In this document: piece by piece, positions 1 to 29,071 of the stretch
Layout of the letters: every line of letters begins with the position of its first letter
How positions within the stretch are numbered: the first letter of the stretch is position 1
DNA from: a virus
Length of the DNA stretch: 31,111 nucleotides
Virus record (IMG/VR): IMGVR_UViG_3300024262_000159
Coordinates: 1-31,111 of that record
Strand: one strand, 5' to 3'
The notes under the pieces: generated by a model
Database searches by the model: none
Told to the model about the DNA's origin: nothing
The model's input: the letters and a program-made list of their open reading frames with translations, nothing else
Made by a program: the position numbers and the translations under genes

Positions 1-944
1 CCGGCTACAGCAGGTACGTTCATGTCGTACGGGTTTCCGGTTGTGAACAATTTCCAGAACGAAGGGTCTGCTGTCGCTCTGTGGCCAACGTTCATACCTA
101 GCCCGGCCCCAGCTCCGGCAAGAAGACCGCGGATGGCTCCCTTACCGGCGTCGCTGTCGTCAGACAGGTGGCCGCCCAGAGCACCGATACCGCTACCTAA
201 AGCCGCAGGGATTGCCATATCCGCGGCGGTTCCAGCAAGTTCTTGAGGCCAGCGATCCGTGTTGAAGTGAAACGACGCTTCCTTCTGCGACAAAACACCC
301 TGCTCAATAAGGATATCACGAAGTTCTTGTGCCTGCGGTCCCTCCATGTCGTAGCCGCCCGGGGGGATACCCATGCTGTGCATCGAATCACCTACGATGG
401 CACGGCGAGCAGCGTTGGTTGCGAAGTCGTTACCAACCTGGTACCCGCCGTAACCGCCTAAACCAGCACCTGCGAGCGCGCCGAGGATACCACCTACGCC
501 AGTAGACTTCTTTTCGTCCCAGCCCATAGCGTTGGCCAGCCCCATACCGCCTAGCCCTCCCAGGATACCACCGCCCGCACCGCCACCTAGTGCCCCGAGA
601 GCCGCTGTAGGTACGCCCAACGGTAACTTATACTCCTGCTCTGTACCAGTCAGTGCCGATATCTTTTTGCGCCACACACTGGCTGTTGTTTGTTTCCCAC
701 TTTCAGCGCCCAGTTGATTACCGCCCATGCCGGTAGATGCGGCACTAGGTGTTGCGGGAGATTCCGAAGGCTTCAAAGATGCAGGATTGACAGAATTTCC
801 TGCGAGCCTAGTAGGGCTCAGCGGAGATGGAGTGAGCGACGGCACAGGAGGTGTAAGCTTGGCGGCGGGAGCACCCACCGTTCCGGATGAGATAGCATCA
901 ATCATCGCCTGCTTCACACCTGCTTCGTAGGCTTGTTTAAGCAT
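1..944 (-). CDS. Leader-tagged glycine-rich virion protein candidate (C-terminus outside window)
   Basis: An open frame starts at the ATG at 944-942 and stays open to the left edge (314 codons seen), so the gene is partial. A purine-rich GGAAGGG lies about 7 bases before the start. Residues 1-17 are the shared leader (MLKQAYEAGVKQAMIDA), but the GLxKE that ends it in the three sister genes is missing. A Pro/Ser/Ala/Thr-rich disordered stretch follows (about 20-70). Then come three glycine-zipper segments full of GGxGG and AGAGLG patterns, typical of small-residue helix packing in or on membranes. I infer an internal or pilot-type virion protein that may help DNA cross the host envelope, from the tag, the zippers and the position downstream of the RNA polymerase and two tagged genes. 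I do not recognise a family. A tape-measure-like or minor capsid role is also possible. Confidence 0.75.
   Translation of the reverse strand, partial: MLKQAYEAGVKQAMIDAISSGTVGAPAAKLTPPVPSLTPSPLSPTRLAGNSVNPASLKPSESPATPSAASTGMGGNQLGAESGKQTTASVWRKKISALTGTEQEYKLPLGVPTAALGALGGGAGGGILGGLGGMGLANAMGWDEKKSTGVGGILGALAGAGLGGYGGYQVGNDFATNAARRAIVGDSMHSMGIPPGGYDMEGPQAQELRDILIEQGVLSQKEASFHFNTDRWPQELAGTAADMAIPAALGSGIGALGGHLSDDSDAGKGAIRGLLAGAGAGLGMNVGHRATADPSFWKLFTTGNPYDMNVPAVA
894..944 (-). repeat. Shared N-terminal leader module, copy 1 (truncated form)
   Basis: Codons 1-17 repeat, nearly base for base, the leader found at 1982-2038, 2384-2440 and 29015-29071. This copy diverges after Met-Ile-Asp-Ala and lacks Gly-Leu-x-Lys-Glu. 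Confidence 0.85.
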
Positions 945-958
945 GTCTGTCCCTTCCT

Positions 959-2038
959 TCATAGAAGAGTTTTAAGGTCTGGTAAGTACTTCGCTAAAAA
1001 TTCTATTGCGGCCCGGCGTTCGTGCATTGGTAAGGAAAATATGGCTGGGATGAGTTCTGCCGCAGTATTAGGGCTGCGGGTACTTAGGTTTCTAACCATA
1101 CGCGCCACTGCCTCGGGGGATTCCTTACCAACCAACCCAAGTATACGCTTCAGATCATGCGCGCCCATAGCACTCTTCTCCAAAGACGCTGCTTTTTGTT
1201 GCAGACCAGGAAGCGCCCCCGTTTGACGGTAGTGCTGCATCTGCGACCGGTACTCACCCAGCTGTGGACGTAGCATCTGTTGCTGAGAAGGCGTTGCAAA
1301 GCGGTTGATGGCATTGTCGTACTTACCTAAGTTTTTTTGAGCGACGTTCCATGTCTGTGCGGGGGTTTCTTTGAACTTATTGGCCATTGCAACTGTACGC
1401 TCTGCCCCTGTTCTGCCCAGACCTTGCGTCTTATCAGCCAAGTATGTAGCTGCGGTAGCGGGGTCCTGTGAGACTCGCTTTTCCAGCCAAGGATACGCGC
1501 CCCACGCGTCGGTGTCGTGGGCACGGACGGTGCCAGACAGGCGACCCTTGTTCATCCCTGGTACGTTACGCGCGTACGCCTTATTGCGCTGCAAAAATTG
1601 CTTAGTGTAGCGTCCGCCCAGCTCTGAGTGCCAAGCACTCGGTGTTTGGTTGAAGAGGTCTTTTCCCATGCGCTTTTGTATTACACCCTCTGTTTCGCGT
1701 CCAACGTCGTGTAGAAGAGACCCTAGTGTTGCCCGCTGTCTTACCGCTTGCGGCATATCTTTCGTAAATTTCTGGGCCGTTCGTGTTACGTCAAAAATGT
1801 GCTGCGCACCGTGACCCCCTGCGTTAGAGACTCTGGCAGCCGATCCCGCAGCTTCGCGCCCAAGCAGTTTATAAGACGCGTTGCTGCGCAAGTGAGCGGG
1901 CAGCTTTTTAACCGCTGCGGCGCGCGCTTCCGGTGCCAGCTTTAATAGCTCTTTCATTATACGTGAGGAGGATTCCTTCACCAAGCCAGCGTCAATCATC
2001 GCCTGCTTCACGCCGGCTTCGTAGGCTTGTTTGAGCAT
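959..2038 (-). CDS. Leader-tagged HD-domain phosphohydrolase
   Basis: 359 residues. Residues 1-19 are the shared leader, followed by LVKES. The HD metal site is complete: H76 or H80 in the first helix, H110-D111 in LLHDVGRE, H137 in WHSELGG, H174-D175, and D202 in YLADKTQGLGRTGAER, the last Asp helix of HD enzymes. The HD family hydrolyses phosphomonoesters or diesters such as dNTPs, nucleotides or (p)ppGpp with bound divalent metal. The substrate cannot be read from the sequence. The C-terminal 150 residues are helical with no motif I recognise. The start is the ATG 3 bases after the upstream stop, with GGAG 6 bases before it. The leader shared with putative virion proteins suggests the enzyme is packaged in the head and delivered with the DNA, which is an inference. 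Confidence 0.8.
   Translation of the reverse strand: MLKQAYEAGVKQAMIDAGLVKESSSRIMKELLKLAPEARAAAVKKLPAHLRSNASYKLLGREAAGSAARVSNAGGHGAQHIFDVTRTAQKFTKDMPQAVRQRATLGSLLHDVGRETEGVIQKRMGKDLFNQTPSAWHSELGGRYTKQFLQRNKAYARNVPGMNKGRLSGTVRAHDTDAWGAYPWLEKRVSQDPATAATYLADKTQGLGRTGAERTVAMANKFKETPAQTWNVAQKNLGKYDNAINRFATPSQQQMLRPQLGEYRSQMQHYRQTGALPGLQQKAASLEKSAMGAHDLKRILGLVGKESPEAVARMVRNLSTRSPNTAAELIPAIFSLPMHERRAAIEFLAKYLPDLKTLL
1982..2038 (-). repeat. Shared N-terminal leader module, copy 2
   Basis: Encodes MLKQAYEAGVKQAMIDAGL at the start of the HD-domain gene. It matches the other copies at most bases, including synonymous sites. Confidence 0.9.
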
Positions 2039-2041
2039 TGT

Positions 2042-2440
2042 TTACTCCTCCGGGCTGAGTAATGACCCGAGGCCTAAACCAGCTGCGCCCCCAGCTGCGC
2101 CGCCACCAATACCGCCCAATAGCTCTCGGAGTTTGTTTCGCTTTAGTGCTGCTTCTGACACTCCCTCTGCTCCAGACAGCAGGTCGCCCAGAAATTGTTT
2201 CTTGTAAGCCTTCCCACTAGTAAGTAGTTCCGGGAGGTAATGCACGCCGGCACCAGCTGCGCCGCCGGAAAGTGCTCCTTGAAACGCAGACCCCAAGTCG
2301 CCGCCAGCTATGCCGCTTAAGATTCCGCCGCCTGCTGCACCTGCGCCCATGTACTTTGCGAGCGGGCTGATAGCTTCTTTTGTAAGCCCTGCGTCGATCA
2401 TCGCCTGCTTCACACCTGCTTCGTAAGCTTGTTTGATCAT
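2042..2440 (-). CDS. Leader-tagged small glycine-zipper protein
   Basis: 132 residues. Residues 1-19 are the leader (MIKQAYEAGVKQAMIDAGL), followed by TKEA. Two glycine/alanine-zipper segments follow: about residues 32-66 (GAGAAGGGILSGIAGG and on) and about 108-128 (LLGGIGGGAAGGAAGLGLG). Between them lies a short charged helix (KRNKLRELL). The protein is small, tagged and probably membrane-interacting, like known phage ejection or pilot proteins in general character, but I cannot assign a family. The ATG overlaps the RNA polymerase stop by four bases (ATGA), and GTGGAG precedes it by about 9 bases, so translation is probably coupled to the polymerase gene. Confidence 0.75.
   Translation of the reverse strand: MIKQAYEAGVKQAMIDAGLTKEAISPLAKYMGAGAAGGGILSGIAGGDLGSAFQGALSGGAAGAGVHYLPELLTSGKAYKKQFLGDLLSGAEGVSEAALKRNKLRELLGGIGGGAAGGAAGLGLGSLLSPEE
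2384..2440 (-). repeat. Shared N-terminal leader module, copy 3
   Basis: Encodes MIKQAYEAGVKQAMIDAGL at the start of the glycine-zipper gene. The only change from copy 2 is Leu2 to Ile. Confidence 0.9.
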
Positions 2441-5400
2441 TTCTTTATCTCCACTGGGGTTCCAAGAGTAATGTCACCGCGGTTGTACGCCGCCCACGCG
2501 TCAGCTTTGTTTGCAAAGGTCTGCTTCTTTCCAGTCTTTTTGGCTGTGGTGGCGGCGTACACCCCGGCGATGGCTTCTTGTTGCGGAGCGGCCTTGGAAA
2601 GCGTGAACTTCTCCTGGTCGCTCAGCAGCATGTTGGGCAGTGTCATCTTTCGGGCATCTTCTGCAGCTTCTTGGGTCGCTGGAAGGTGGATCTGGACAGC
2701 ATCGCCATCAAAGTCACCCGACATAATAGGTGCCAGCATCTCGTGAACCCGAATAGTCTTCCCAGGAACCATCTTCGGATACGCTGCCAGCATGTTGTAC
2801 CGGTACAGTGACGGAGCACGATTGACCAAAACAGGCCTTGTCCTGATTTCGTTGGTAAGCACGTTCAGGGCCACGGGTTGTCGGTCGTCAATCATCTTCC
2901 GCGCGTCCATTGCCTTGTACCCGCGCTGTACGAGACCCCGAGTGATGTGTGGACGGTACATACTCCAGGCCATGTCTTCAGGCAAACCAATCTCATCCAT
3001 GCCCAGTGTAGGGTCAGGAGCAATCGTACCGCGTCCTGACAAGTCCTGGCGCTTGGCTAAGAGCTTACTGTGAACAAACCCGTACTTGGGGCCAGAACCT
3101 GTGCCGGCCAGGCGGCTCAAGAACCCCTGGACTCCACGTGCTTTCAGCTGCGGGCTTACTGGGTCGGCGTCGCCATACAGTGCTCGCATGGAGTCGTACA
3201 GGTGCGCTCGTGCCTCACCCTGGACGGCAGTGGGCATGTCCTTGGACTTCTTAAGCATGTCGTTGGCTAGCATAGCGTCACGATATAGATAGTTGGCGTC
3301 GTTGATCTGCAGGTCACCCTGTTTTCCAGGAAGAATGGGGCGAAAAGACGGAGGCACCACCGGTACCTTTTTCACGATAAAAGCCGTTTCTGGTCGCACC
3401 TGGTTAGCGTTCAAGTTCCTGATGACCTTGAGTTTCTTGACAGCACTGTCCCGTGCGGTACCCTGGAGCTTCTTCATGCGCTCAAGGAGGCTATCCTCTT
3501 CTTTCTTCATGTCCAGCTTCGAAAGGCGTTTCTTGAATCCCGTGCCGCCTTCATCGCGCATCGTCTGGTCGAACTCGGACTGCTTCATCCCCAGGAGCCA
3601 CTTTACCGGCCGCTCCATAGTCGGGCTGACAATAGGCTCATGTAGGTCAAAGTGAGACCACTTAGTGCCGCTGGTGCCGCCGGTGATGACAGGGTCAAAC
3701 AAGCCGCCCTTCTCGGGACGCAGGTCTTTCGCGCGTACGAACAGCGGGTTACGCACCGTACCAGATGACATCTTAGTAGTGTCCAAGTCAGTAAGCGGCC
3801 CCACAGATATCTGGTTGGCGTTCTTGTCCATTTTGACGCCGGCACCAGCAAGCATGGCACCAAACTTGTCGTACGCAAACGTGGTCTTCAGCGGCGGTAG
3901 TGGCAGTCCTAGCTGGTACGCGCGCCACCACTCATCGTTCTTCTGGCTCTTGAGTGCCGCGGACTCTCGCAGAATGTTCCTGGAGTCGTGGGCCAGGAGC
4001 GCGTTGAATACAAGGCGCCCTACGCTTTTGGCGCCGGTCGGGCCGCCTGAAGACGGCTGCTGATTCACATCATAGTCTTCTACGCCACGCGCTGAAAAGT
4101 TGGTGTCCGTTGATTTGAACAGCTTGTACATGTAACGCGGTCCCACTAGAACTTTGGGGATCTTCTTGCCGGATACCGGGTCAAAGATAGTCTCTGTGTC
4201 CTTCAGGCCGTTTTTCTTGAGCTCGTCCTTCACCCACTGAACGTTGTTCTTCCCGGAAAAGTTATCCACCAGGATGGGGTTGCCAGTCTTACGGGCTACG
4301 CGTCCAAGGGCTGCTTCGAGTACCTGACCTGGGTTGATGCGCGACACAACGGTTGCTGGGGAGATGGCAACGTCTATGGGGTTTCCGTTTTCGTCCTGAA
4401 TCATTTGGTTGTCAGGGACGATAGCCGACACGACACCCTTGTCTCCCATTCTCCCACTTATTTTATCTCCGATACCAAGAGGCGCGTTCATTTTTACAGT
4501 CAGGCGAATCTTACGCCCAGACTTAGCAACGTCGACTACTTCTCCTGGGTAGTCTTTGTCCCAGGTAGTACCAGCATCCCTGAACGGCTTGACTAGGCTT
4601 TTGTGGAGCTTGCCCAGCATCTGTGCTTCGGGGGACAGCTCAGTCTTTCGCACCGATGCGATGAGCAGGTCACCTTTGTTTACTTGCATGCCCGGCTTGA
4701 TAATGCCGCCGTCGTCAAGTTTGGCGTACATGTCTTTTGAATATTTGCTCCCAAAGTAAGACTTGTGTTTGGACGTGTCGGCGGCCATGTTGGCGTCGAG
4801 GTCTTCGCCTATTCTGTACATATGCTGAGAGGTTAGCTTTTTTGCCGCACCTTCAGAAACAACGATAGCGTCGTTGGAATTCATCCCACGCATGGGGATG
4901 TAGGCCACGTTCAGGTTTGTGCCCAGGGTCAGAGAACCATCCTTGGTATACGCCGAATCAGCGAGTGTCTGGCCAGCTTTGACCTCGTCGCCAGCCTTCA
5001 CTAGCAAGTTGTGGTGCAGAAACGTCTTGGACGCCAGCGGAAAATTCTCGTGGAAAGGAACTTTGAGGCTATCTCCGACTGCCGCAGTTTTGTCGTTGGG
5101 ACGAATGTGAATGTACCCATCTCGAATAGAGCTGACTACGCCGCTGACAGGAGCTCTTGGAGAAACAAGAGCACCTATCTCGCGCTCCATCGAATCAGAC
5201 CTGCCACCCATGTGGCCCTGGACCTGGATAAGGGGCGTCTCACTGTGAACAAGGGGGAGCGCCTGGGTATTCATCTTAGACGCCATGGTTTGCCGGTTCC
5301 CATCGATGCTGTCCATGAATGGAATGAGGTTCGACGCTGGACTGTACATGGACGCCATATTTGGAATCTTGTAGCGGACCTGAGACGCCGGCATTGACTG

Positions 5401-6801
5401 GATCGCGTTGTTGTGGATTACGTCTACTTTGCCCCGGGCGCCCGTAACGTGCTGCTGCGGAAAAGCAATGGCGTTGCTGACCGCTTTTTCTACGGGTACC
5501 CACGCAAGGCGTTTGTGTTTTGTATCCCAGAGTCTAGTAAACAAACTGCCGTCCTCACCGCGACCAGTGTACAGAGTCGTACGCAGATCGATACCAGATC
5601 TGCTGCTTTCTGGAGTTCGGATGGGATCCAACACAGCGGCATGGGACGTGTGCAGCCTGCGCGCTTCCATAGGGATGGCGCGCTCAGAAGAGATCCCGCC
5701 CTCCCCCAGAGAGGTCACGCGTACAGATGAGTCCAGGATCTCTACGGGGTTTATCTGATCTGGGCTAGAAGACAGTGCTGACGTTGATAAAAAGCTTCTG
5801 ACAGATTTGGTAAACGGAGACGCCGGGACTGCTTCCAGCTGCTGCTTCCCGCGCTCAATCTTAGACAGCACTTTGTTCTTCAGACCGCGAGCTTCGAGCT
5901 TGATACGTTCTGCGATGAAGTCATCAGACGACTTTAGGTGTTTGTAGGCCAGGTCGTCGCGCTCGTCGAAATCGACGTCATCTTTGTAAGCACGAAGTAA
6001 CTTATCAGACGCTGACAACATCGCTTCGGGGGTAACGCTGCTAAAGCGCTTGCCCAGCGTGCGTTCTGTGACATGGGGATCCATGGACGTGCCGGCGTAC
6101 ACGTTTTTTATGGCAGCTACGCGGTCCTCGTTGTCTACGCGGTACGCAGGCCGGATCATTTTATTGTACAGGCGGCTTATGTGCCTGTCCGCACTGCTAC
6201 CGAATGCACGGCGGTTTACGTCAACAAGCTCTGGTTTCCAGTACTTAGACATTTCTTTGTCAGAAACGCCTAGCTTGTTCAGTACAGGATAAAGAGGTAT
6301 CTTGGTCGTACCGTACTCTAAATTGAACAGACCCTTTTCCTGGTCCATGCTCATCTTGAAGTTGTCGCCCTTGGACAGGTTGAATGCAGCTTCCAGGGCC
6401 TCGTTCTTTCGTTTGCGCGTGTATATCCCTGGTTTCATGCGCAGCTGGTTACTGACGTTGTACGAGTTGCCGTTGATGACAAACGTATGGTGACCAGTAA
6501 AGTACGGCAGTTGCAGGAGGTTGAACTTGGGGAGTTCCTGAACGACCTTACCAGTGGAATTATCCTTCAAGACCAGCGTTCCCCGCACCGGTTCAGAAAG
6601 AGTCCTGGCGTGCAACAGAGCATTCTTGTGCGCCACGGGGCTCACGTCGATAGGGTGTACTTTTACGTTTTTGACGTCAACTGTGAACCGGTTACCTACG
6701 AATGGGAACGCATTCTTTATACCTTCGACGGCTTTGTTTCTGATCTGTTCTCGTTTGACGTCTGCCTCGACAAAGACTGGCTCTGTTTTCATAGCACTCA
6801 T
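2437..6801 (-). CDS. Phage multisubunit-type RNA polymerase: beta fused to N-terminal part of beta'
   Basis: 1454 residues, DNA-dependent RNA polymerase. Beta hallmarks in order: FVINGNSYNVSNQLRMKPG (107-125), DPIRTPESSRSG (392-403, counterpart of PIETPEGxNIG), NVAYIPMRGMNSNDAIVVSE (631-650), the double-psi barrel with both catalytic-site lysines in GDKISGRMGDKGVVS (778-792), SRINPGQVLE (820-829) and the PSSGGPTGAKSVGRL clamp (916-930). Beta' then begins: LRPEKGGLFDP (1027-1037), VPVVPPSFRPILPG (1146-1159), KRQDLSGRG (1250-1258), PVLVNRAPSLYR (1323-1334) and the Mg-binding DFDGD (1363-1367). The chain stops 87 residues later. The beta' zinc ribbon is missing, and the bridge helix and trigger loop would have to come from another gene. 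In E. coli beta and beta' are separate; phiKZ-like phages split them into several chains. The gene lies among virion genes, so a packaged polymerase is possible. The start is ATG 6801 (ATG 6792 is also possible); neither has a good ribosome-binding site. Confidence 0.97.
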   Translation of the reverse strand: MSAMKTEPVFVEADVKREQIRNKAVEGIKNAFPFVGNRFTVDVKNVKVHPIDVSPVAHKNALLHARTLSEPVRGTLVLKDNSTGKVVQELPKFNLLQLPYFTGHHTFVINGNSYNVSNQLRMKPGIYTRKRKNEALEAAFNLSKGDNFKMSMDQEKGLFNLEYGTTKIPLYPVLNKLGVSDKEMSKYWKPELVDVNRRAFGSSADRHISRLYNKMIRPAYRVDNEDRVAAIKNVYAGTSMDPHVTERTLGKRFSSVTPEAMLSASDKLLRAYKDDVDFDERDDLAYKHLKSSDDFIAERIKLEARGLKNKVLSKIERGKQQLEAVPASPFTKSVRSFLSTSALSSSPDQINPVEILDSSVRVTSLGEGGISSERAIPMEARRLHTSHAAVLDPIRTPESSRSGIDLRTTLYTGRGEDGSLFTRLWDTKHKRLAWVPVEKAVSNAIAFPQQHVTGARGKVDVIHNNAIQSMPASQVRYKIPNMASMYSPASNLIPFMDSIDGNRQTMASKMNTQALPLVHSETPLIQVQGHMGGRSDSMEREIGALVSPRAPVSGVVSSIRDGYIHIRPNDKTAAVGDSLKVPFHENFPLASKTFLHHNLLVKAGDEVKAGQTLADSAYTKDGSLTLGTNLNVAYIPMRGMNSNDAIVVSEGAAKKLTSQHMYRIGEDLDANMAADTSKHKSYFGSKYSKDMYAKLDDGGIIKPGMQVNKGDLLIASVRKTELSPEAQMLGKLHKSLVKPFRDAGTTWDKDYPGEVVDVAKSGRKIRLTVKMNAPLGIGDKISGRMGDKGVVSAIVPDNQMIQDENGNPIDVAISPATVVSRINPGQVLEAALGRVARKTGNPILVDNFSGKNNVQWVKDELKKNGLKDTETIFDPVSGKKIPKVLVGPRYMYKLFKSTDTNFSARGVEDYDVNQQPSSGGPTGAKSVGRLVFNALLAHDSRNILRESAALKSQKNDEWWRAYQLGLPLPPLKTTFAYDKFGAMLAGAGVKMDKNANQISVGPLTDLDTTKMSSGTVRNPLFVRAKDLRPEKGGLFDPVITGGTSGTKWSHFDLHEPIVSPTMERPVKWLLGMKQSEFDQTMRDEGGTGFKKRLSKLDMKKEEDSLLERMKKLQGTARDSAVKKLKVIRNLNANQVRPETAFIVKKVPVVPPSFRPILPGKQGDLQINDANYLYRDAMLANDMLKKSKDMPTAVQGEARAHLYDSMRALYGDADPVSPQLKARGVQGFLSRLAGTGSGPKYGFVHSKLLAKRQDLSGRGTIAPDPTLGMDEIGLPEDMAWSMYRPHITRGLVQRGYKAMDARKMIDDRQPVALNVLTNEIRTRPVLVNRAPSLYRYNMLAAYPKMVPGKTIRVHEMLAPIMSGDFDGDAVQIHLPATQEAAEDARKMTLPNMLLSDQEKFTLSKAAPQQEAIAGVYAATTAKKTGKKQTFANKADAWAAYNRGDITLGTPVEIKK

Positions 6802-7912: not shown

Positions 7913-8304
7913 TTTTCTGGTGCTCCTTTTTTCGGTTTTTCGTCCGGGACGAGGCACTTAACAGATACCATCGTGCGCCCGTCTTGGAGGTGCTGCCATT
8001 CTTCGCGGGCCATGAGCCACTTCTTTTGCAGACAGTTGTTCACCATATTTTCCAGCATCTCGCACTGCTCGGGGTCAGACAGGTCGAATAGCCCGTAAGA
8101 GGCACGGAACTTCTCGCGCATACCAAACATGTTTCGACCAGTCTTACGGTCAATGCTGGTTTGAACCTCTTCATCAGAGATTTCTACGTGCTTACCCGGA
8201 TGGATAGGCGGCATTTCTTGGTCGGTCTGCATGTGTTCCATCAGCTTGGAAAAGTCGGGGTCGTGGCCGAACAGTTCTTGCATCGGATCTCTTGCGTCGC
8301 TCAC
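7909..8304 (-). CDS. Hypothetical small protein between portal and 7532 gene
   Basis: 131 residues starting at GTG 8304, which overlaps the portal stop as GTGA; the stop overlaps the next ATG the same way. Such coupling usually means fixed stoichiometry with the neighbours. The protein is acidic at the N-terminus (ELFGHDPDFSKLMEHMQTDQEMPP), has a helical middle (SDPEQCEMLENMVNNCLQKKWLMAREEWQHL) and ends in a basic KPKKGAPEK tail. There is no recognised domain, signal peptide or membrane segment. Context suggests a head or packaging accessory protein. Confidence 0.7.
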   Translation of the reverse strand: MSDARDPMQELFGHDPDFSKLMEHMQTDQEMPPIHPGKHVEISDEEVQTSIDRKTGRNMFGMREKFRASYGLFDLSDPEQCEMLENMVNNCLQKKWLMAREEWQHLQDGRTMVSVKCLVPDEKPKKGAPEK

Positions 8305-10037
8305 ATCGCACCGCCTTGTTGTTGTTGTGCACGCATATCTTGTCGCATCATGGCCTCATTCTGCGTTTGCAACTCTTCCATGCGCTGGATAACTACGGAG
8401 TACATGACGAAGTCTTCCATCTGGAGGGAGTGCAGGTAACTCTTGCGCGTACCTTCGTCCATGGACATTATCTGCTGCGCAATCTGGTCAGCCTGCGCGA
8501 CTACAGCTTGCTGGTCGTAGCCCTGCGGTTGTTCCGTCTGGGTAGACGCGCGTGCTCGGTCAGCTAGGTTTTGCTGCATTTGCTGCATATCTTGGTCCAC
8601 TTCCCACTGGAACTTCGCTTCGTCCAGCGTCTCCTGCTTTCGAAGCTCGCGCTCCTTGATGATGTCGCGCCCAAACATATTGGCGATGGAAGTAGTCGAC
8701 AGCAGCTGGTTCCCGGAAGCTTGGTTAGCCTGGAGAAGAGCCATCTTTTGCTGGACATCGTCAACAAGCTTGAACGGTTCGAGGTCTAAACGAATCTTTT
8801 TCCACCCCAAGAATTCGGAACACTTGTTGGTAACCCACTGCGCCTGATCAATGAGTTGCGTGGTGTAGTTCAGTAGCTGATTCTCCAGCATCCTGAGAGT
8901 TACGCTAGACCCAGTAGCAGAGAGTCCGCCGTAGATGAACTCGCGAGGGATCCCCATCGCTGCGATGATGCTGTCCTCGGCCTCTTTGATTTCTCCAGTG
9001 ACCATGAGCGCTCGGCCTTGGCCGCCTACGTTGGTCACACCAACAGGAATCGGAGAAAACATAAGGTGCAGTGGGTCTTTTCGCCACGCCTTCAAATTCA
9101 TCTTGGTTTCGTTGATCCAGTTGGACAGGGAGATTGTAATCGTCGGATCCGAATTCTGCGTTGGTTGCGTTGGGTGCATCACCCGAAAAGGTACGATGTG
9201 CTCAAGGGAGATGGCTTCGTTTGCCTTACGAAGAACTGCCGTGTAAAAGAACTGTTTCAGCGTGGACGTAAGGGGCGGGAAGCCCCAGCGAGAATCGATA
9301 CCCGCGGGCGCGTCTGCCTTCATGTGATACAGCTTGTCGTGACCGAATTTGAATATTTTGCGCTCTGCGATGCAGTCAATGAACGCAAGGGGTGTCGTTG
9401 CTAACAGATGTTTGTTGCCGGAGCGCAGTCTGTCTCGAAAGTCAGTCGGGATTCTGTAGAAGTACTCCGATTCTCCGGTGATGGGGTTCTGTTCGATTTC
9501 AATTTGCTTCGGGTCCCAGCGGATAACGTTGATCCCGCGCGGGTGGCGTAGCTTTTCGTCAACAACCTTGGCCGAAACCTCTTTGTTGCAATTGCTGCAG
9601 CGCATAAGGAAGTTGGCGCTCTTGTTTTTGATCTTGAACTTGTACGTAGCGTGCCTAATACTCATGCGTGTTTTGCATGAGGGGCACTCTAAGAACCGTT
9701 TGAATGGGAAGTACACAGAAACGAAGCTGTTCCCGTACACGTGCCGGTCGATGCCAGTCTTGGTCAGAACAGTCTTTAGTTGGATAGTATTCTCGAGTAA
9801 GTTCTTGTACTTTTGTTTGAGCTTTGGGCTGTCTGTCTCGAAAATTAGATCTGTTACAGGGTAGACAGCAAACTTGTTCAGCGCTGCAAAGATCTGCGGG
9901 CTGTTGTAGTACAAGTATTCACAGTACGTGAACAAAGACTTGAGCTGTCGGGGCACAAACGTAGTGAGGTAGTCAAACAGAGGATTCGGGTGCTGAACTC
10001 CGCGGTTTGCGTAGTCGGTATCTGTACTTAGGGGCAT
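8301..10037 (-). CDS. Portal protein with internal zinc ribbon
   Basis: 578 residues. Portal proteins form the dodecameric ring through which terminase pumps DNA into the prohead. Portal-like features are the N-terminal NSPQIFAALNKFAVYPVTDLIF (45-66), GIDRHVYGNSFVSVYFPF (95-112), MKADAPAGIDSRWGFPPL in the middle, IKEAEDSIIAAMGIPREFIYGG and the long helical stem-like part. The C-terminus is Gln/Met-rich (MQQMQQNLAD to QQQQGGAM). An insertion at 118-150 holds CPSC and CSNC, a four-Cys zinc ribbon that is unusual in portals. Start: ATG 10037 with AGGAG 7 bases upstream, 29 bases after a -10 element. It is the first gene of its unit and is translationally coupled to the next. The lack of other portal candidates and the presence of TerL in the same genome support the call. 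Confidence 0.85.
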   Translation of the reverse strand: MPLSTDTDYANRGVQHPNPLFDYLTTFVPRQLKSLFTYCEYLYYNSPQIFAALNKFAVYPVTDLIFETDSPKLKQKYKNLLENTIQLKTVLTKTGIDRHVYGNSFVSVYFPFKRFLECPSCKTRMSIRHATYKFKIKNKSANFLMRCSNCNKEVSAKVVDEKLRHPRGINVIRWDPKQIEIEQNPITGESEYFYRIPTDFRDRLRSGNKHLLATTPLAFIDCIAERKIFKFGHDKLYHMKADAPAGIDSRWGFPPLTSTLKQFFYTAVLRKANEAISLEHIVPFRVMHPTQPTQNSDPTITISLSNWINETKMNLKAWRKDPLHLMFSPIPVGVTNVGGQGRALMVTGEIKEAEDSIIAAMGIPREFIYGGLSATGSSVTLRMLENQLLNYTTQLIDQAQWVTNKCSEFLGWKKIRLDLEPFKLVDDVQQKMALLQANQASGNQLLSTTSIANMFGRDIIKERELRKQETLDEAKFQWEVDQDMQQMQQNLADRARASTQTEQPQGYDQQAVVAQADQIAQQIMSMDEGTRKSYLHSLQMEDFVMYSVVIQRMEELQTQNEAMMRQDMRAQQQQGGAM

Positions 10038-15349: not shown

Positions 15350-16192
15350 TCAATCCGAGAAAGCAAGGTCCTTTACGCACTCTACGTTTAGCTTTTTGCT
15401 GAACTTCCTCTGTAGCGACGCGAGCGAGTCCATTTTTATCTGGCGCACGCGTTCAGAGCTAACACCCAAAACGCCGGCTATCTGTCGCAACGACCATGGC
15501 TCATCGATGTACCCATAGTACGCGCGCAACACGAAGCCTTCTTTGACGCCAAGTGTTTTCAACGCAGCGTTGAGGAACCCTCTTGTCTCAGCATCGATTG
15601 CGCTCTGGTCGGCTTTTGGTTTTTCATGAGGGGGCGGTACGTTTTCAATCGAAGGAAAACAAAAATGGTCTACACGTAGGCGCTCAATCTGTTCCTTTGA
15701 AAGTTCTGTAGCGGTGCACAGCTCGTCATCGTCTGCCTCGCGCCCACTACGCTCTGCTTCGGACTTGACGCGATTGACTTTTCGGACCGCCTTCTGGCGC
15801 CACCTGGGCATACTGACTAACTCAGAGTCGTATAACTCTTCTCGGATGTACAGCTTAATGTAGTACGTGGCGTAAGACAGGAAGCGGGTTTTTCTATTTG
15901 GGTCGTAGCGGGTGAGTGCGTTGAGCACACCGAGGTTCCCGGCAGAAATCAGATCTTTCACTCTGTCCGGGTCTCGCGAGTACTTCTGCGCTAGTTTGAC
16001 TACCTGGCGCAGGCAGTTGTGCACCAGTGCGTCGCGTGCGTCGATGTCGTTGGTTTTCTTGTACTGCTTGTAGAGTTTGCGCTCTAATTGGGGAGTAAGT
16101 ATTTTAGTCCGACCGACTTCTTTGTAGTAACAGTGGAAATTCTTGTCGGTAGCCAAAGTATTGTGCACCCGTGCAGCCGAAGAAGTTGTCAA
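15350..16192 (-). CDS. Sigma70-family RNA polymerase sigma factor
   Basis: 280 residues from TTG 16192. Region 2 is clear (counting from the start used): ALVHNCLRQVVKLAQKYSRDPDRVKDLISAGNLGVLNALTRYDPNRKTRFLSYATYYIKLYIREEL at about 55-120, including the 2.2-2.4 core. Region 3 follows (MPRWRQKAVRKVNRVKSEAE). Region 4 has the HTH SLRQIAGVLGVSSERVRQIKMDSLASLQRK (about 234-263), which reads the -35. The protein is near full sigma length apart from region 1.1. The TTG has GGGGAGGAG six bases upstream. The ATG at 16228, twelve codons earlier, has no ribosome-binding site, but a 292-residue product cannot be excluded. It probably directs host or phage-encoded polymerase to phage promoters. Divergent from the 16417 gene and convergent with the ParB-like gene. 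Confidence 0.92.
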   Translation of the reverse strand: MTTSSAARVHNTLATDKNFHCYYKEVGRTKILTPQLERKLYKQYKKTNDIDARDALVHNCLRQVVKLAQKYSRDPDRVKDLISAGNLGVLNALTRYDPNRKTRFLSYATYYIKLYIREELYDSELVSMPRWRQKAVRKVNRVKSEAERSGREADDDELCTATELSKEQIERLRVDHFCFPSIENVPPPHEKPKADQSAIDAETRGFLNAALKTLGVKEGFVLRAYYGYIDEPWSLRQIAGVLGVSSERVRQIKMDSLASLQRKFSKKLNVECVKDLAFSD

Positions 16193-16271
16193 TGGTTCTC
16201 CTCCCCATATCTTGCGCCATGATGCCATTGTGGCACAACATGTAGTAGTGTCGCAAGCGTTTTATCCAATC

Positions 16272-21100: not shown

Positions 21101-21427
21101 GTGTTCTGGCAGAAAATCATCAGCGGGGTACTCCAGAGATCCAATACGTACCGTGGGGCGCAGTTCCCACTACGTTTGAAAGCAGTTGCTGACGGAGACC
21201 CGCGTATCATTCCTAAAGAAGTAGTCGGTAAGGCGTCGTTTATGCAGAAGTACATCTGGCCGTTGGTAGGGGCTGCAATCGGACCTGAAGAAATCAGCGT
21301 GCTGGACGTAAGCAAGACGCTTGATATCAAGTCTGGTAGCGGAGACGCCGTCGTCGATTACAATCAAGAACAGCATGCCATTCTGGACGACATTCCTGAT
21401 GAATTACTAGAAGGAGAGGTCGAGTGA
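18113..21427 (+). CDS. Primase-ATPase fusion (DnaG-type zinc and TOPRIM domains plus P-loop helicase-like domain)
   Basis: 1104 residues. Makes RNA primers and probably unwinds the fork. N-terminal zinc-binding domain GCCPYHAEQKPSF (49-61) with CFGSC (72-76): C51, H54, C72 and C76. TOPRIM catalytic core: LEGEMDVVAL (282-291), PDNDNSGRS (331-339) and KDPD (363-366), the three acidic motifs of DnaG. A middle region of unknown fold (about 380-690) follows. The ATPase has Walker A GETHSGKT (704-711) and Walker B LLLDEFED (753-760), then RSIRGTAGG with candidate arginine fingers. The ATPase does not look like the DnaB/T7 gp4 RecA type and is closer in style to AAA+/SF3-like or VirE-type domains; I am unsure. 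GTG start overlaps the nuclease stop, with AGAGGA upstream. The stop overlaps the polymerase start. Confidence 0.9.
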   Translation: MTVKKKFQDLPPKKLREIWGSVTPADWLALLQEHKPDNDWVLSGNTIKGCCPYHAEQKPSFVISLDKRQAKCFGSCDKYIWNPIQFYADISASSYSHALQDMRKRFNLRVSTAYAQNAQKVEENDRLKSALFKAMHLEFTEALTQDNKPEYQYLHKSNFFQWIRQRQLPEETAHKWPLGVVPTRQRLMARLDEIGAKDLKAEASAYLGSYLGVSGGGCEGWAVFPYYTSPTTIGRLKMRKPKSGKDVPYYFIDDPYAEHFGWFGLNTFAHLRGKLQHHPLYVLEGEMDVVALVAYQESEGRDDVFSIATSGKGEFDVTPAFEFGFDHIRAIPDNDNSGRSWAVSVMNENERVDRVFRWSDPQIKDPDEAFRAWGFEITYDRITDETNYPRNYEWCSEQLEQDLLGIDSTDVRRRNELAARYGQSLHDDSERAAFLLEAVQQDGIDKELVIQDMSISEDSPEAFALRLEKQLGLEYYFMHEAQSGTMPIARAWSNRKSVMRSFQLSSPAAILSTLELDVGNIEAYIRAHLGEPDFLNYRMGPKGMPMHLSPTAKSQQVMHICGQATRSLASKATPREKLKEVGQGVHYIDDFEGHPTLFIVNGTKFFKGVAEGGKMTYIQLDSPISDDFIFRLAPDLWSNNIKSVEDINSGIDHDPKYLFNAVLEMMRIGWRFKHHELEAQFMAADIMYTAIASVFNHMVMTDLTGETHSGKTSLMQLMGGNEFGAYRLCDAAIFIDDFTAAAVRQLMSGHCLRLLLDEFEDTDSMAARTDKKAGAVRDILNMIRSLVSGARSIRGTAGGEHQDFHIKFPLTVGGIYTMREARDLNRFVHIRTHHMEGFNDPIVPIREKYSVSDIAKIRRGLTLCWLPRIPELLQAYQEIQDEFADNATLPPGTYTRLKDNLMPAAAIMKIVGHDYKTFMTEFCKIKMDELLEQGVTKESSNIWSNILHTPVSMSHVESGRTGVSAVAKIIGNPNLNYLLNDADLGAYYLKEQKWLVVFWQKIISGVLQRSNTYRGAQFPLRLKAVADGDPRIIPKEVVGKASFMQKYIWPLVGAAIGPEEISVLDVSKTLDIKSGSGDAVVDYNQEQHAILDDIPDELLEGEVE

Positions 21428-24258
21428 AGAAGAAAGGGATTTCGTGTAAAAGCTGCCCCGCCTTTCACGAGCCTTGTCTGGACCACGGGATAGGAGACAA
21501 CCCGGCGCACATCATAGCTGTCGGAGTATCACCGTCCAATTTTTCTATCGGTGAAGATAAGGCGTTCTACGGGCACGCAGGCCGCATGTTTACCAAGCTC
21601 ATGGGGATCATAACGCGGCGCCAGCCCAACCAAAAAGAGGAGATCAAAGTATACAAGACGTACGCCGTGTTAGTCGGCGCACACAAACCTACGATTGAAC
21701 ATGTGCAGAACTGCCAGTCTCACCTGAGACGTGAGCTGGATAAAATACGCGGGATCGAGGGGCGCGAGCCAGTGCTCGTTCCCCTCGGCCCGCTAGCTTT
21801 GAAAGCTGTTGGTATTCAAGCAAAGAAAATCACAGACGTAGTGGGGCGCGTGATGTCCACTACTATACCGACGATGGGTGGTTCACGAAAATTGGTGGTC
21901 GTCCCATGCTTGTCGATGGACCACGTGATAGCCAAACCTGGTACTGCAGCTGTTGCGCTGTCTGCTTTGTCAAAGGCAGTGAGCATCGCATGTGGCGAAC
22001 GTGCTGATGAGAACGCTCCGCTAGCCACGCTTACCAAGGACTACATCTACCCTAAGACAGCCGCAGAGGTAGGCGAACTAGTAGATATGATACTGGGGTA
22101 CAAGGATCAGGGTAATGTGTCTTTCCACAAGAGCGCAGAGTTCTGGCCGATATCGGTAGACACCGAAACCAACACTCTGTACCCGTACTACCACGAAAAC
22201 CCGAAGACGCTCATGTTATCTGTGGCATGGAACGCCGGCAAAGCTGCGACTATTTTGCTAGACCACCCTGACGCAGGGTACGACGACGAGGGTGCGGCTG
22301 CGTGGGAACACGTGCGCAGACTTCTTCAGTCCCCCAAACCCAAGGTATTCCACAACTGGAAGTTCGACCACAAGTTCTTGGAGCTGACTAATGGCATCCA
22401 AGTAAACAACGTCAAGTGGGATACTATGCTGGGGGAGCACTACTTAGAGGAAGACAAGCGGGGGCTGTATTCGTTAAAGCAACTTACCCCCATGTATGCA
22501 CCCGGATACGGTGGGTACGACGATGCGTTGCAGGAGATCTTTCGTGGCGCAAAGAAGGACCCTGAGTTCCTGCATCTGCCTGACGACCAGATACTTACCC
22601 TGGCAACACCTGAAGGACGCGACCCAGAGCAGTGGGAAAAACTGCGGGAGTGGATAGTAATACGCAATAAGCTTCGTAAGATCTCGGCTAAGTTGCGTTC
22701 AGTTATGGAACAGTCGGAGTTTGCTGAGTCGGGTGTGCAGATAAAGGAGTTGCGCGGGGAGCTAAAGATCAAAAAACTCGTGAAGCCAAAAAAGGAGAAG
22801 GGAGCTGACGGAGGGTTCGAAAGTATTCCTCTCGATGTCATTCTGCAGTACGCCGCAGTCGACGCTGACGTTACTTGGGTTATTTTCACCAAGCAGCTCC
22901 GGCGTCTATCTATCACCAAGCTGCGGGAAGAAGGGTCTGAGGTTATGAAGTCCTTGTACCTCCCGGCCAGTCGCACGTTGTCAAGGATGGAGTACCGAGG
23001 GTTTCCGGTAGACCAGGAGCACTTGGCTAACGTAACCGTCGGCGTAGAAGAACGTTTGAGCGCAGCAAAGCAGGTTCTTGCAGATCGGTTCGACCCCAAT
23101 CTGAACGTCAATGCGGCGAAGCAGGTGTCGGACTACATGCAGGCGCTAAACTTTGAGGCGCTACCGGGAGTTGATCCTGGGAGTACAGGCAAGGACGTGC
23201 TGGCTAAGTACAAGGAGCACTACCCTGAAGACGATAACCGGCACGTTTTCTGTGACAAGGTGTTGGAGTATCGGGAGTGCCATAAGACTCTCAATACGTA
23301 CCTCAAGAACATCCGTAAGTTTTCTGCCCACGACGGAAAGATTCATTGCACGTTCCATCTAAATGGGACCGCAACTGGCAGACTTTCGAGTGCCAACCCC
23401 AACCTACAAAATTTGCCGCCTATCACATGCAGACGTGTGCGCAACGGGGAGGTAGAGTTCGAGGGGTTCAACATCAAGAAGCTGTTTGTTCCGTCGCGGC
23501 CAGGGTATTCCATAGCCAACTGCGACATCTCCGGTGCCGAGCTTCGTGTTGTCACGGCCTACTCCGGTGATGAAGACATGATCGCTGCTTTGACCGCAGG
23601 GCTAGACCTTCATAGCGTCACTACGTCTAAGGTCTACGGTATCCCGTACGAAGAAGTGATGCGGCTCAAGGAGCTACACGACCCCGACATAACGAAGAAG
23701 AGGTTGAAATGTAAGCGCGTTGTGTTCGGGGCCCTGTATGGTGCCGGCGCGTACAAGCTCGCTGAGCAGGTGAACTGCAGCTACGAAGAAGCTCAGGAGT
23801 TGCAGCGGTTCTTGTTTGAGGCGTACCCAAAACTGCGTGAGTACATCGACAACACACACGCAGAGTTGCAGCGAGACAACCAACGTGTGCAAACCTTGTT
23901 TGGGCGCGTGCGAAGGTTCAAGCTGGCGGCCCTGACAGAACGTCACGCCGCTGAGGCCCGCCGTGAGGCGGTGAACTTCAAGATCCAGTCTACATCAAGT
24001 GACCTGGTACTGAGTCAGTTGTGTGAGATGGACGATCATCTCCACGAACTCGACGCCAATCTCTTAGTCACAGTCCACGACAGCTACGTGTTAGAGATCC
24101 CGACCGAGAACATTCCGAAGCTCTGGAACTTCTTCGACTACTGGATTGTAGAACGCATCAAAGAACGTTTCCCGTGGTTGCCCGTCCCGTTTGCGTATGA
24201 TCTCGAAGCGGGTCCCAGTTACGGAGAACTGAAGGAGGTTTCTAGAGATGCCGCATAA
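21424..24258 (+). CDS. DNA polymerase I family replicase with N-terminal uracil-DNA-glycosylase-like domain
   Basis: 944 residues. Residues 1-190 match the family 4/5 UDG fold: C8, C11, C18 and C97 for an Fe-S cluster, VGVSPSNFSIGEDKAFYGHAGRMF (33-56) and PVLVPLGPLALKAVG (116-130). The catalytic Glu position of GEAPG is V35 and the HPS motif is replaced near S164, so glycosylase activity is doubtful. 3'-5' exonuclease: D246/E248 (SVDTETN), N311/D315 (HNWKFDHKF), Y476/D480 (YAAVDAD), so the proofreading residues are intact. Polymerase: motif A D701-E706 (CDISGAELR), motif B R760, K764, F768, Y772 (RLKCKRVVFGALYG), motif C H885-D886 (VTVHDS). A basic insert (about 380-465) separates Exo II from Exo III. 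GTG start overlapping the primase stop, with AAGGAGAGG upstream. Likely the phage replicative polymerase. Confidence 0.95.
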   Translation: MKKKGISCKSCPAFHEPCLDHGIGDNPAHIIAVGVSPSNFSIGEDKAFYGHAGRMFTKLMGIITRRQPNQKEEIKVYKTYAVLVGAHKPTIEHVQNCQSHLRRELDKIRGIEGREPVLVPLGPLALKAVGIQAKKITDVVGRVMSTTIPTMGGSRKLVVVPCLSMDHVIAKPGTAAVALSALSKAVSIACGERADENAPLATLTKDYIYPKTAAEVGELVDMILGYKDQGNVSFHKSAEFWPISVDTETNTLYPYYHENPKTLMLSVAWNAGKAATILLDHPDAGYDDEGAAAWEHVRRLLQSPKPKVFHNWKFDHKFLELTNGIQVNNVKWDTMLGEHYLEEDKRGLYSLKQLTPMYAPGYGGYDDALQEIFRGAKKDPEFLHLPDDQILTLATPEGRDPEQWEKLREWIVIRNKLRKISAKLRSVMEQSEFAESGVQIKELRGELKIKKLVKPKKEKGADGGFESIPLDVILQYAAVDADVTWVIFTKQLRRLSITKLREEGSEVMKSLYLPASRTLSRMEYRGFPVDQEHLANVTVGVEERLSAAKQVLADRFDPNLNVNAAKQVSDYMQALNFEALPGVDPGSTGKDVLAKYKEHYPEDDNRHVFCDKVLEYRECHKTLNTYLKNIRKFSAHDGKIHCTFHLNGTATGRLSSANPNLQNLPPITCRRVRNGEVEFEGFNIKKLFVPSRPGYSIANCDISGAELRVVTAYSGDEDMIAALTAGLDLHSVTTSKVYGIPYEEVMRLKELHDPDITKKRLKCKRVVFGALYGAGAYKLAEQVNCSYEEAQELQRFLFEAYPKLREYIDNTHAELQRDNQRVQTLFGRVRRFKLAALTERHAAEARREAVNFKIQSTSSDLVLSQLCEMDDHLHELDANLLVTVHDSYVLEIPTENIPKLWNFFDYWIVERIKERFPWLPVPFAYDLEAGPSYGELKEVSRDAA

Positions 24259-28729: not shown

Positions 28730-29071
28730 TTAGCTGTTATGCCCAAGAGGAGGCAGCCCCGGCTTTCCACCTACGCCGGTAAAAGGTTTGTTGGCAGCGT
28801 CGATATACCCCTTGCCTGACGTACCGACTGCTCCGGAATACCCGCCGCCGGTGGCTGCAGGCGCGCTGGCTGCCAGTGCTGACTCAGTGTTGTTCATCGG
28901 AACGTTGGGGCTGTATCCTGCAGCGTATCGGTTACCTTCGGCCATAGACGCCTGTCGGTTTGCCTGTATGCCTTGCTGCACGGTCGGATCCATTGTACCG
29001 GCCGACTCCTTCAACAACCCAGCGTCGATCATCGCCCGGCGCACGCCAGCTTCGTAGGCTTGTTTGAGCAT
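28730..29071 (-). CDS. Leader-tagged small low-complexity protein
   Basis: 113 residues. Residues 1-19 are the shared leader in a slightly altered form (MLKQAYEAGVRRAMIDAGL), followed by LKES. The rest is Gly/Ala/Ser/Asn/Pro-rich and probably disordered (QGIQANRQASMAEGNRYAAGYSPN, ASAPAATGGGYSGAVGTSGKGY). There is no enzyme motif. It carries the tag 26 kb from the other three copies, showing the module is not confined to one cluster. It starts two bases after the upstream stop and has only a weak ribosome-binding site, so it depends on coupling. Confidence 0.75.
   Translation of the reverse strand: MLKQAYEAGVRRAMIDAGLLKESAGTMDPTVQQGIQANRQASMAEGNRYAAGYSPNVPMNNTESALAASAPAATGGGYSGAVGTSGKGYIDAANKPFTGVGGKPGLPPLGHNS
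29015..29071 (-). repeat. Shared N-terminal leader module, copy 4
   Basis: Encodes MLKQAYEAGVRRAMIDAGL. The only amino-acid changes from copy 2 are Lys11-Gln12 to Arg-Arg; most other bases match. Confidence 0.9.

Follow-up and report, generated by a model that had tools for sequence, protein, structure and literature searches.

The window analysed here is an entire linear IMG/VR fragment of 31,111 nt (31 kb). Its RNA polymerase gene leaves 2436 bp downstream, up to base 1 (Table 1). Using Pfam, the encoded chain was resolved into Rpb2 domains 2, 3 and 6 and, after these, Rpb1 domains 1 and 2. RNA_pol_Rpb2_6 matched with E 3e-48, matches to Rpb2_3, Rpb1_1 and Rpb1_2 were also obtained, and Rpb1 domain 5 was absent from the chain according to Pfam. 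Sequence matches in the PDB were bacterial and cyanobacterial beta and beta' subunits, and full-length relatives retrieved by protein search supported this assignment of the 1454-aa chain. An earlier note on this DNA had reported that half of beta' is missing here. This observation was confirmed, the chain consisting of beta and beta'N only; the interval 2042-2440 to which it had been assigned is the next, leader-tagged gene on the minus strand and not the polymerase. A terminase large subunit is also encoded in the window, and the polymerase has the portal gene upstream of it both here and in Salmonella phage Arash (conserved synteny). A family A DNA polymerase with N-terminal uracil-DNA-glycosylase-like and 3'-5' exonuclease domains is encoded at 21424-24258 on the plus strand.

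Table 1. Features of the window, and intein-like insertions in polymerase genes of relatives.
Feature	Position	Strand	Remarks
Leader-tagged glycine-rich protein	3..962	minus	Open at contig end; beta'C expected beyond, per gaps in relatives
Leader-tagged protein with HD domain (PF01966), 359 aa	959..2038	minus	Between beta'N and expected beta'C
Leader-tagged glycine-rich protein, 132 aa	2042..2440	minus	Start overlaps RNA polymerase stop (ATGA); not part of beta'
Conserved beta'N end (...VEIKK stop), beta' split site	2437..2454	minus	Aligns to E. coli RpoC ∼551
RNA polymerase chain	2437..6801	minus	1454 aa; complete beta fused to beta'N (N-terminal half of beta')
Catalytic DFDGD of beta' (residues 1363-1367)	2701..2715	minus	From translation; aligned with E. 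coli RpoC 460-464
Portal-like protein	8301..10037	minus	31% identical to Arash gp204 (annotated as portal) over 543 aa; upstream of polymerase
Sigma-70-like factor, regions 2 and 4	15350..16228	minus	PF04542, E 3e-11; PF04545, E 8e-9
Intein-like insertions (relatives)	After GDK of beta in L021, L028, L029; after RTPE of beta in L026; after DFDGD of beta' in L052, L054, L060, L065		

To locate the split site, the chain was aligned with RpoC of E. coli and with single-chain relatives. As had been claimed, the chain stops 87 residues past DFDGD. The position given for this end in E. coli beta' had been about 545; in the alignment, VEIKK falls on VKVRIT at RpoC ∼551. Among 63 split-type chains (window included, some of them near-duplicates), 55 end 84-91 residues past DxDGD, the usual C-terminus being of the ...P[VI][EK]I type; most of the other eight carry short extensions and one has an insertion inside DFDGD itself. 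In the nearest relative (L021, 68% identity) the chain terminates at the corresponding position, and leader-tagged genes and then the contig end come next. That the window holds a truncated or frameshifted copy of a gene normally encoding one full-length beta-beta' chain, following mutation or assembly error, is extremely improbable. Relatives with a single beta-beta' chain (1993-2662 aa) were found, but the chain end is kept within a few residues across the clade, L021 shares it along with the same kind of tagged genes, separate beta'C genes occur in relatives and the frames downstream encode unrelated genes without a beta'C remnant at 1-2440. Because the end is conserved across relatives, L021 among them, truncation and frameshift are excluded, and judging from these comparisons the half-length beta' is neither damage nor frameshift.

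The polymerase frame is closed by TGA at 2437-2439. This codon shares bases with the ATG that starts the following gene, and beyond it the frame is interrupted by many further stops, so that there is no read-through. A read-through or shifted frame across 2380-2440, for which a check had been proposed, was rejected on the basis of this closed frame and because no beta'C signal was detected in any frame. PF04998, the family containing bridge helix and trigger loop, gave no match in the 31,111-nt window. Neither did beta'C profiles of relatives, for which all six window frames were searched across stop codons (best E = 3.5), in line with the earlier reading that no window gene has bridge-helix or trigger-loop motifs.

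The gene following the polymerase had been described as encoding a leader-tagged glycine-zipper protein; its product (2042-2440) is glycine-rich and carries the shared leader MIKQAYEAGVKQAMIDAGLTKE, and no Pfam or PHROG match was obtained for it. The N-terminal peptide MLKQAYEAGVKQAMIDAGLxKE is common to four window genes (3-962, 959-2038, 2042-2440 and 28730-29071), all on the minus strand. A looser form of this leader (AYxxGxxxAxxxxG) opens many proteins near the polymerase genes of L021, L028, L050, L118, L146, L127 and L154, and counterpart tagged genes after the polymerase are also present in L021, L028 and L146. The leader is possibly a capsid-targeting or processing tag; a DNA search of viral contigs for the peptide gave no match. 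The tagged 359-aa neighbour with an HD domain (959-2038, minus strand) adjoins the polymerase region, and an HD domain fused to a beta fragment has been reported for AR9-type virion RNA polymerases (PMC7598289).

Relatives were obtained by protein search, yielding Arash and three Vibrio phages, and by alignment search, which led to more than 150 IMG/VR contigs; 80 of these were taken. The Arash chain (gp206) shares 36% identity with that of the window over the whole chain. Arash and Vibrio phages D69 and D181 each carry one stand-alone PF04998 gene of 606-609 aa on the same strand as the chain, located 4.7 kb downstream of it in Arash (gp216) and 0.6 kb downstream in D69 and D181. Stand-alone beta'C genes matched Rpb1 domain 5 (PF04998) with E 9e-16 and 5e-21, and beta'C of the Arash/Vibrio type matched Thermus beta' with E 2e-41. 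In the annotations of Arash, D69 and D181 these proteins appear just as 'RNA polymerase subunit beta' or 'hypothetical protein' and are not marked as two beta' halves. Following alignment with E. coli, the last residue of beta'N was placed at RpoC ∼551 and the first residue of beta'C at ∼572, positions which in single-chain relatives are separated merely by a short linker. The two boundaries are thus complementary, with just a loop of ∼20 E. coli residues lost.

When IMG/VR relatives were searched with the beta'C profile, 14/14 records longer than 100 kb carried beta'C, encoded either separately or at the end of a single-chain gene, and it was not found in four shorter records (G001-G004, fragments of 32-87 kb). 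The expectation that a separate beta'C gene exists elsewhere was therefore borne out in relatives, and we infer that the window virus has one as well, its own copy lying beyond the end of the record. A virus without beta'C, whose polymerase is inactive, borrows the host beta'C or works in a non-canonical manner without bridge helix and trigger loop, would agree with the absence of the gene from the 31-kb record and from G001-G004; yet all searched relatives above 100 kb and the isolate genomes carry beta'C and the records without it are partial, making this explanation very unlikely.

The distance between the two genes was determined in two sets. In the first, beta'C was found 606-4705 bp downstream on the same strand in 33/33 fused-type loci with both genes in view. 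In the second, comprising the best 80 beta'C loci, each of the 80 had a beta-beta'N chain on its upstream side, encoded on the same strand and inside the 6 kb taken. The gap between beta'N and beta'C had a median of 1478 bp and a range of 531-5683 bp (76 roughly non-redundant values). It exceeded the 2436 bp left in the window in 16 of these 76, beta'C thus being nearer than this in about four in five relatives. In the nearest relatives showing beta'C, the gap was 4182 bp (L118, 54% identity) and 3442 bp (L146, 52%), and was partly filled by tagged genes; those of L146 are the same as in L050, whose contig stops short of beta'C. With 2.4 kb left and gaps of 3.4 and 4.2 kb in these neighbours, the beta'C gene of the window most likely lies just past base 1, beyond the tagged genes. 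No overlap was found between the fetched loci and the first 400 bases of the window. Of the earlier claim that this half is missing from the locus, the absence stands and its cause is mainly the contig end, as the beta'C of relatives is usually 0.5-5.7 kb downstream. Placement of beta'C tens of kb away, outside the cluster, is unlikely: such an arrangement is seen in L047 (record G007; chain 1 at 70-75 kb, beta'C at 33-34 kb, ∼36 kb apart) and in G012 (parts ∼80 kb apart), but both are divergent and exceptional compared with the fused-type loci of the first set, with which the best 80 beta'C loci agree.

Taken together, the enzyme is very probably a phage RNA polymerase without alpha, composed of two polypeptides of which the window encodes the larger; the gene for the separate beta'C most likely lies slightly past base 1. 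Chain 1 with its conserved end, the separate beta'C of relatives with complementary boundaries and the lack of an alpha match were read directly from sequence. Both double-psi barrels would come from chain 1 (beta-beta'N), which would thereby bring in the catalytic aspartates together with the active-site face that holds the beta lysine. The bridge helix, the trigger loop and the remaining clamp-side modules would be supplied by chain 2 (beta'C, ∼600 aa), whose gene most likely starts past window base 1 and the leader-tagged genes, at a distance of between a few hundred and a few thousand bp. The break between the chains would fall in a surface loop that joins the beta' barrel to the module following it. 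Given the established structure of RNA polymerases, with the barrels on chain 1 and the moving parts on chain 2, both chains would have to associate for a working enzyme. RNA_pol_L (alpha) gave no match in 21/21 records, while matches were obtained in 13/14 control genomes; assembly would therefore have to be alpha-free, as reported for phiKZ-like RNA polymerases (PMC7598289). A sigma-70 region 2 gene is present in 17/21 records searched, window included. The phage sigma-70-like factor would direct the polymerase to promoters; the gene at 15350-16228 is, as a guess, a candidate for this promoter-recognition partner.

Active-site elements of chain 2 were examined in 16 aligned phage beta'C proteins. 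All 16 have the bridge-helix stretch and the histidine of the trigger loop (H936 in E. coli), and the E. coli trigger-loop residues M932 and R933 were not conserved, so that catalysis may differ in detail from that of E. coli. Structure models were built with rows from IMG/VR loci only. In one beta'C model (mean pLDDT 76), the bridge region forms a single 36-residue helix (158-193), and helices 283-304 and 320-329 flank a disordered trigger loop. A Foldseek search with the beta'C model returned bacterial beta' chains. The beta'N model was weak (pTM 0.44; Foldseek TM 0.36 with large rmsd) and, because of this low confidence, was used for family assignment and not for geometry.

Three architectures were observed among the relatives: beta-beta'N plus beta'C, as in the window; a single chain that comprises the whole of beta and beta' and measures 1993-2662 aa, with insertions in the largest; and three genes encoding beta, beta'N (∼390 aa) and beta'C. 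A tree of 65 rows was inferred with E. coli as outgroup, using a quick search without bootstrap and with a single long cellular branch. Single-chain rows were basal, the two- and three-gene rows formed one clade (SH-aLRT 98) and the three-gene rows a single clade within it (100). On this tree, one change is needed for a split of beta' and two for a fusion of beta and beta'. The grouping of two- and three-gene rows was kept in a smaller tree with and without E. coli (support 99); owing to the long E. coli branch, a fully resolved root was not obtained. The tree suggests a single-chain beta-beta' ancestor, one post-barrel split and a later second split between beta and beta'. Somewhat favoured is the fuller account in which that ancestor was cut once in the post-barrel loop, giving beta-beta'N and beta'C, and one subclade underwent a second cut that separated beta from beta'. 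The break region would then have been reused independently of cyanobacteria and phiKZ-like phages. Split positions differ by tens of residues between these groups, which fits independent origins. No description of such a series of fusions and splits was found in the open-access papers searched.

In this lineage, the number of chains making up the enzyme varies from one to three among close relatives, the breaks being at fixed places. If the proposed history is true, these relatives form a living series of these forms for study, relevant to the open question of how phage RNA polymerases came into pieces and what joins the pieces without alpha. Two isolate types (Salmonella phage Arash and Vibrio phage D69) make the two-chain form purifiable. 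A polymerase that seems to be half missing from a fragment needs to be read alongside its relatives, the other half being a separate and usually neighbouring gene.

Among known systems, Arash (gp206 and gp216) and Vibrio phages D69 and D181 share with the window the beta-beta'N fusion, the split, the upstream portal, the separate beta'C and the sigma-like gene, which in Arash is gp196. The mReC phages (Weinheimer and Aylward 2020, PMC7481178) probably represent the lineage to which the window belongs; common to both are beta and beta' of a caudovirus alignable with cellular RNA polymerase, an origin in IMG/VR contigs and a terminase (PF03237, weak match here). Recognisable cellular beta and beta' homologues on a caudovirus contig, a feature of mReC phages, are found here together with a terminase and a portal-like gene. 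The major capsid protein of mReC phages belongs to PF07068; among the window genes, none was identified as a capsid gene. In the tree, which included one cellular row and no published mReC sequences, phage rows were split from E. coli by a long branch. To enter the mReC screen, sequences needed NADxDGD and a match of 800 aa or more (PMC7481178). The window has SGDFDGD and the beta'N of three-gene members is shorter than 800 aa, so that both fall outside this screen, which is a screening rule and not a biological definition. The word 'split' does not occur in the text of PMC7481178 and 'fused' is used only of crAssphage.

The post-barrel region is the place where beta' is split in cyanobacteria and phiKZ-like phages (PMC7598289). 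The RNA polymerases of phiKZ and AR9 (PMC7598289, PMC7824862) likewise have beta' split past the catalytic barrel and lack alpha. However, their beta is itself divided over two or three polypeptides, whereas that of the window is whole and fused to beta'N. Furthermore, phiKZ-like phages have two paralogous sets of polymerase genes, one virion and one non-virion, and reports on them mention no sigma factor of recognisable bacterial type; Arash and D69 have one beta-beta'N and one PF04998 gene each, and the window encodes sigma-70 regions 2 and 4. PHROG matches suggest that beta'N of phiKZ-like phages ends ∼30 residues earlier. The parallel drawn with phiKZ-like phages in the earlier note therefore holds for the region of the split and does not extend to the whole, fused beta or the sigma factor, and the split here appears to have arisen within the window lineage itself.

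Cyanobacterial rpoC1/rpoC2 are also split in the post-barrel region, and beta'C aligns from near the N terminus of cyanobacterial beta'. The gamma subunit (624 aa) reaches ∼70 residues beyond the aligned end of the window chain; cyanobacteria also have alpha and make beta as a protein of its own, in contrast to the fused beta of the window. Single-chain phage RNA polymerases (crAss-like, YonO, P23-45) have two barrels in one chain, as do the single-chain relatives described here, but have diverged too far to be recognised by cellular beta/beta' profiles (PMC7481178, PMC10770324). The window family, in contrast, matches cellular Pfam models directly. PHROG 24349 and 25354 (1191 and 1216 aa), which match beta and unsplit beta', were rejected as whole phage relatives, their sizes being those of B. 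subtilis-type rpoB and rpoC. Many 'phage' records matching these PHROGs are unannotated, with bacterial-looking genes, and were not used as evidence.

Several relatives carry further alterations of the polymerase genes. Intein-like in-frame insertions of ∼350-530 aa occur at three conserved active-site positions (Table 1). In L099 (226-2982, record G012) and L100, beta'C is a 919-aa ORF in which an intein-like C-terminal part is joined right after the DFDGD position; the beta-beta'N ORF of G012, ∼80 kb off, ends before DFDGD, and the DFDGD piece was not found. This polymerase looks as if broken at the intein site. In Vibrio phage D181 (L004, 19974-25488) a homing endonuclease gene interrupts beta-beta'N, which is uninterrupted in D69. 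Insertions of ∼140 aa at the same site of beta (profile position ∼580) are present in L030 (10001-14791) and L045 (9974-14956) and are not intein-like. Finally, in L020 (15059-18394) and L048 (18489-22682) the C-terminus of beta'C is lengthened by ∼500-800 aa of unrelated sequence.
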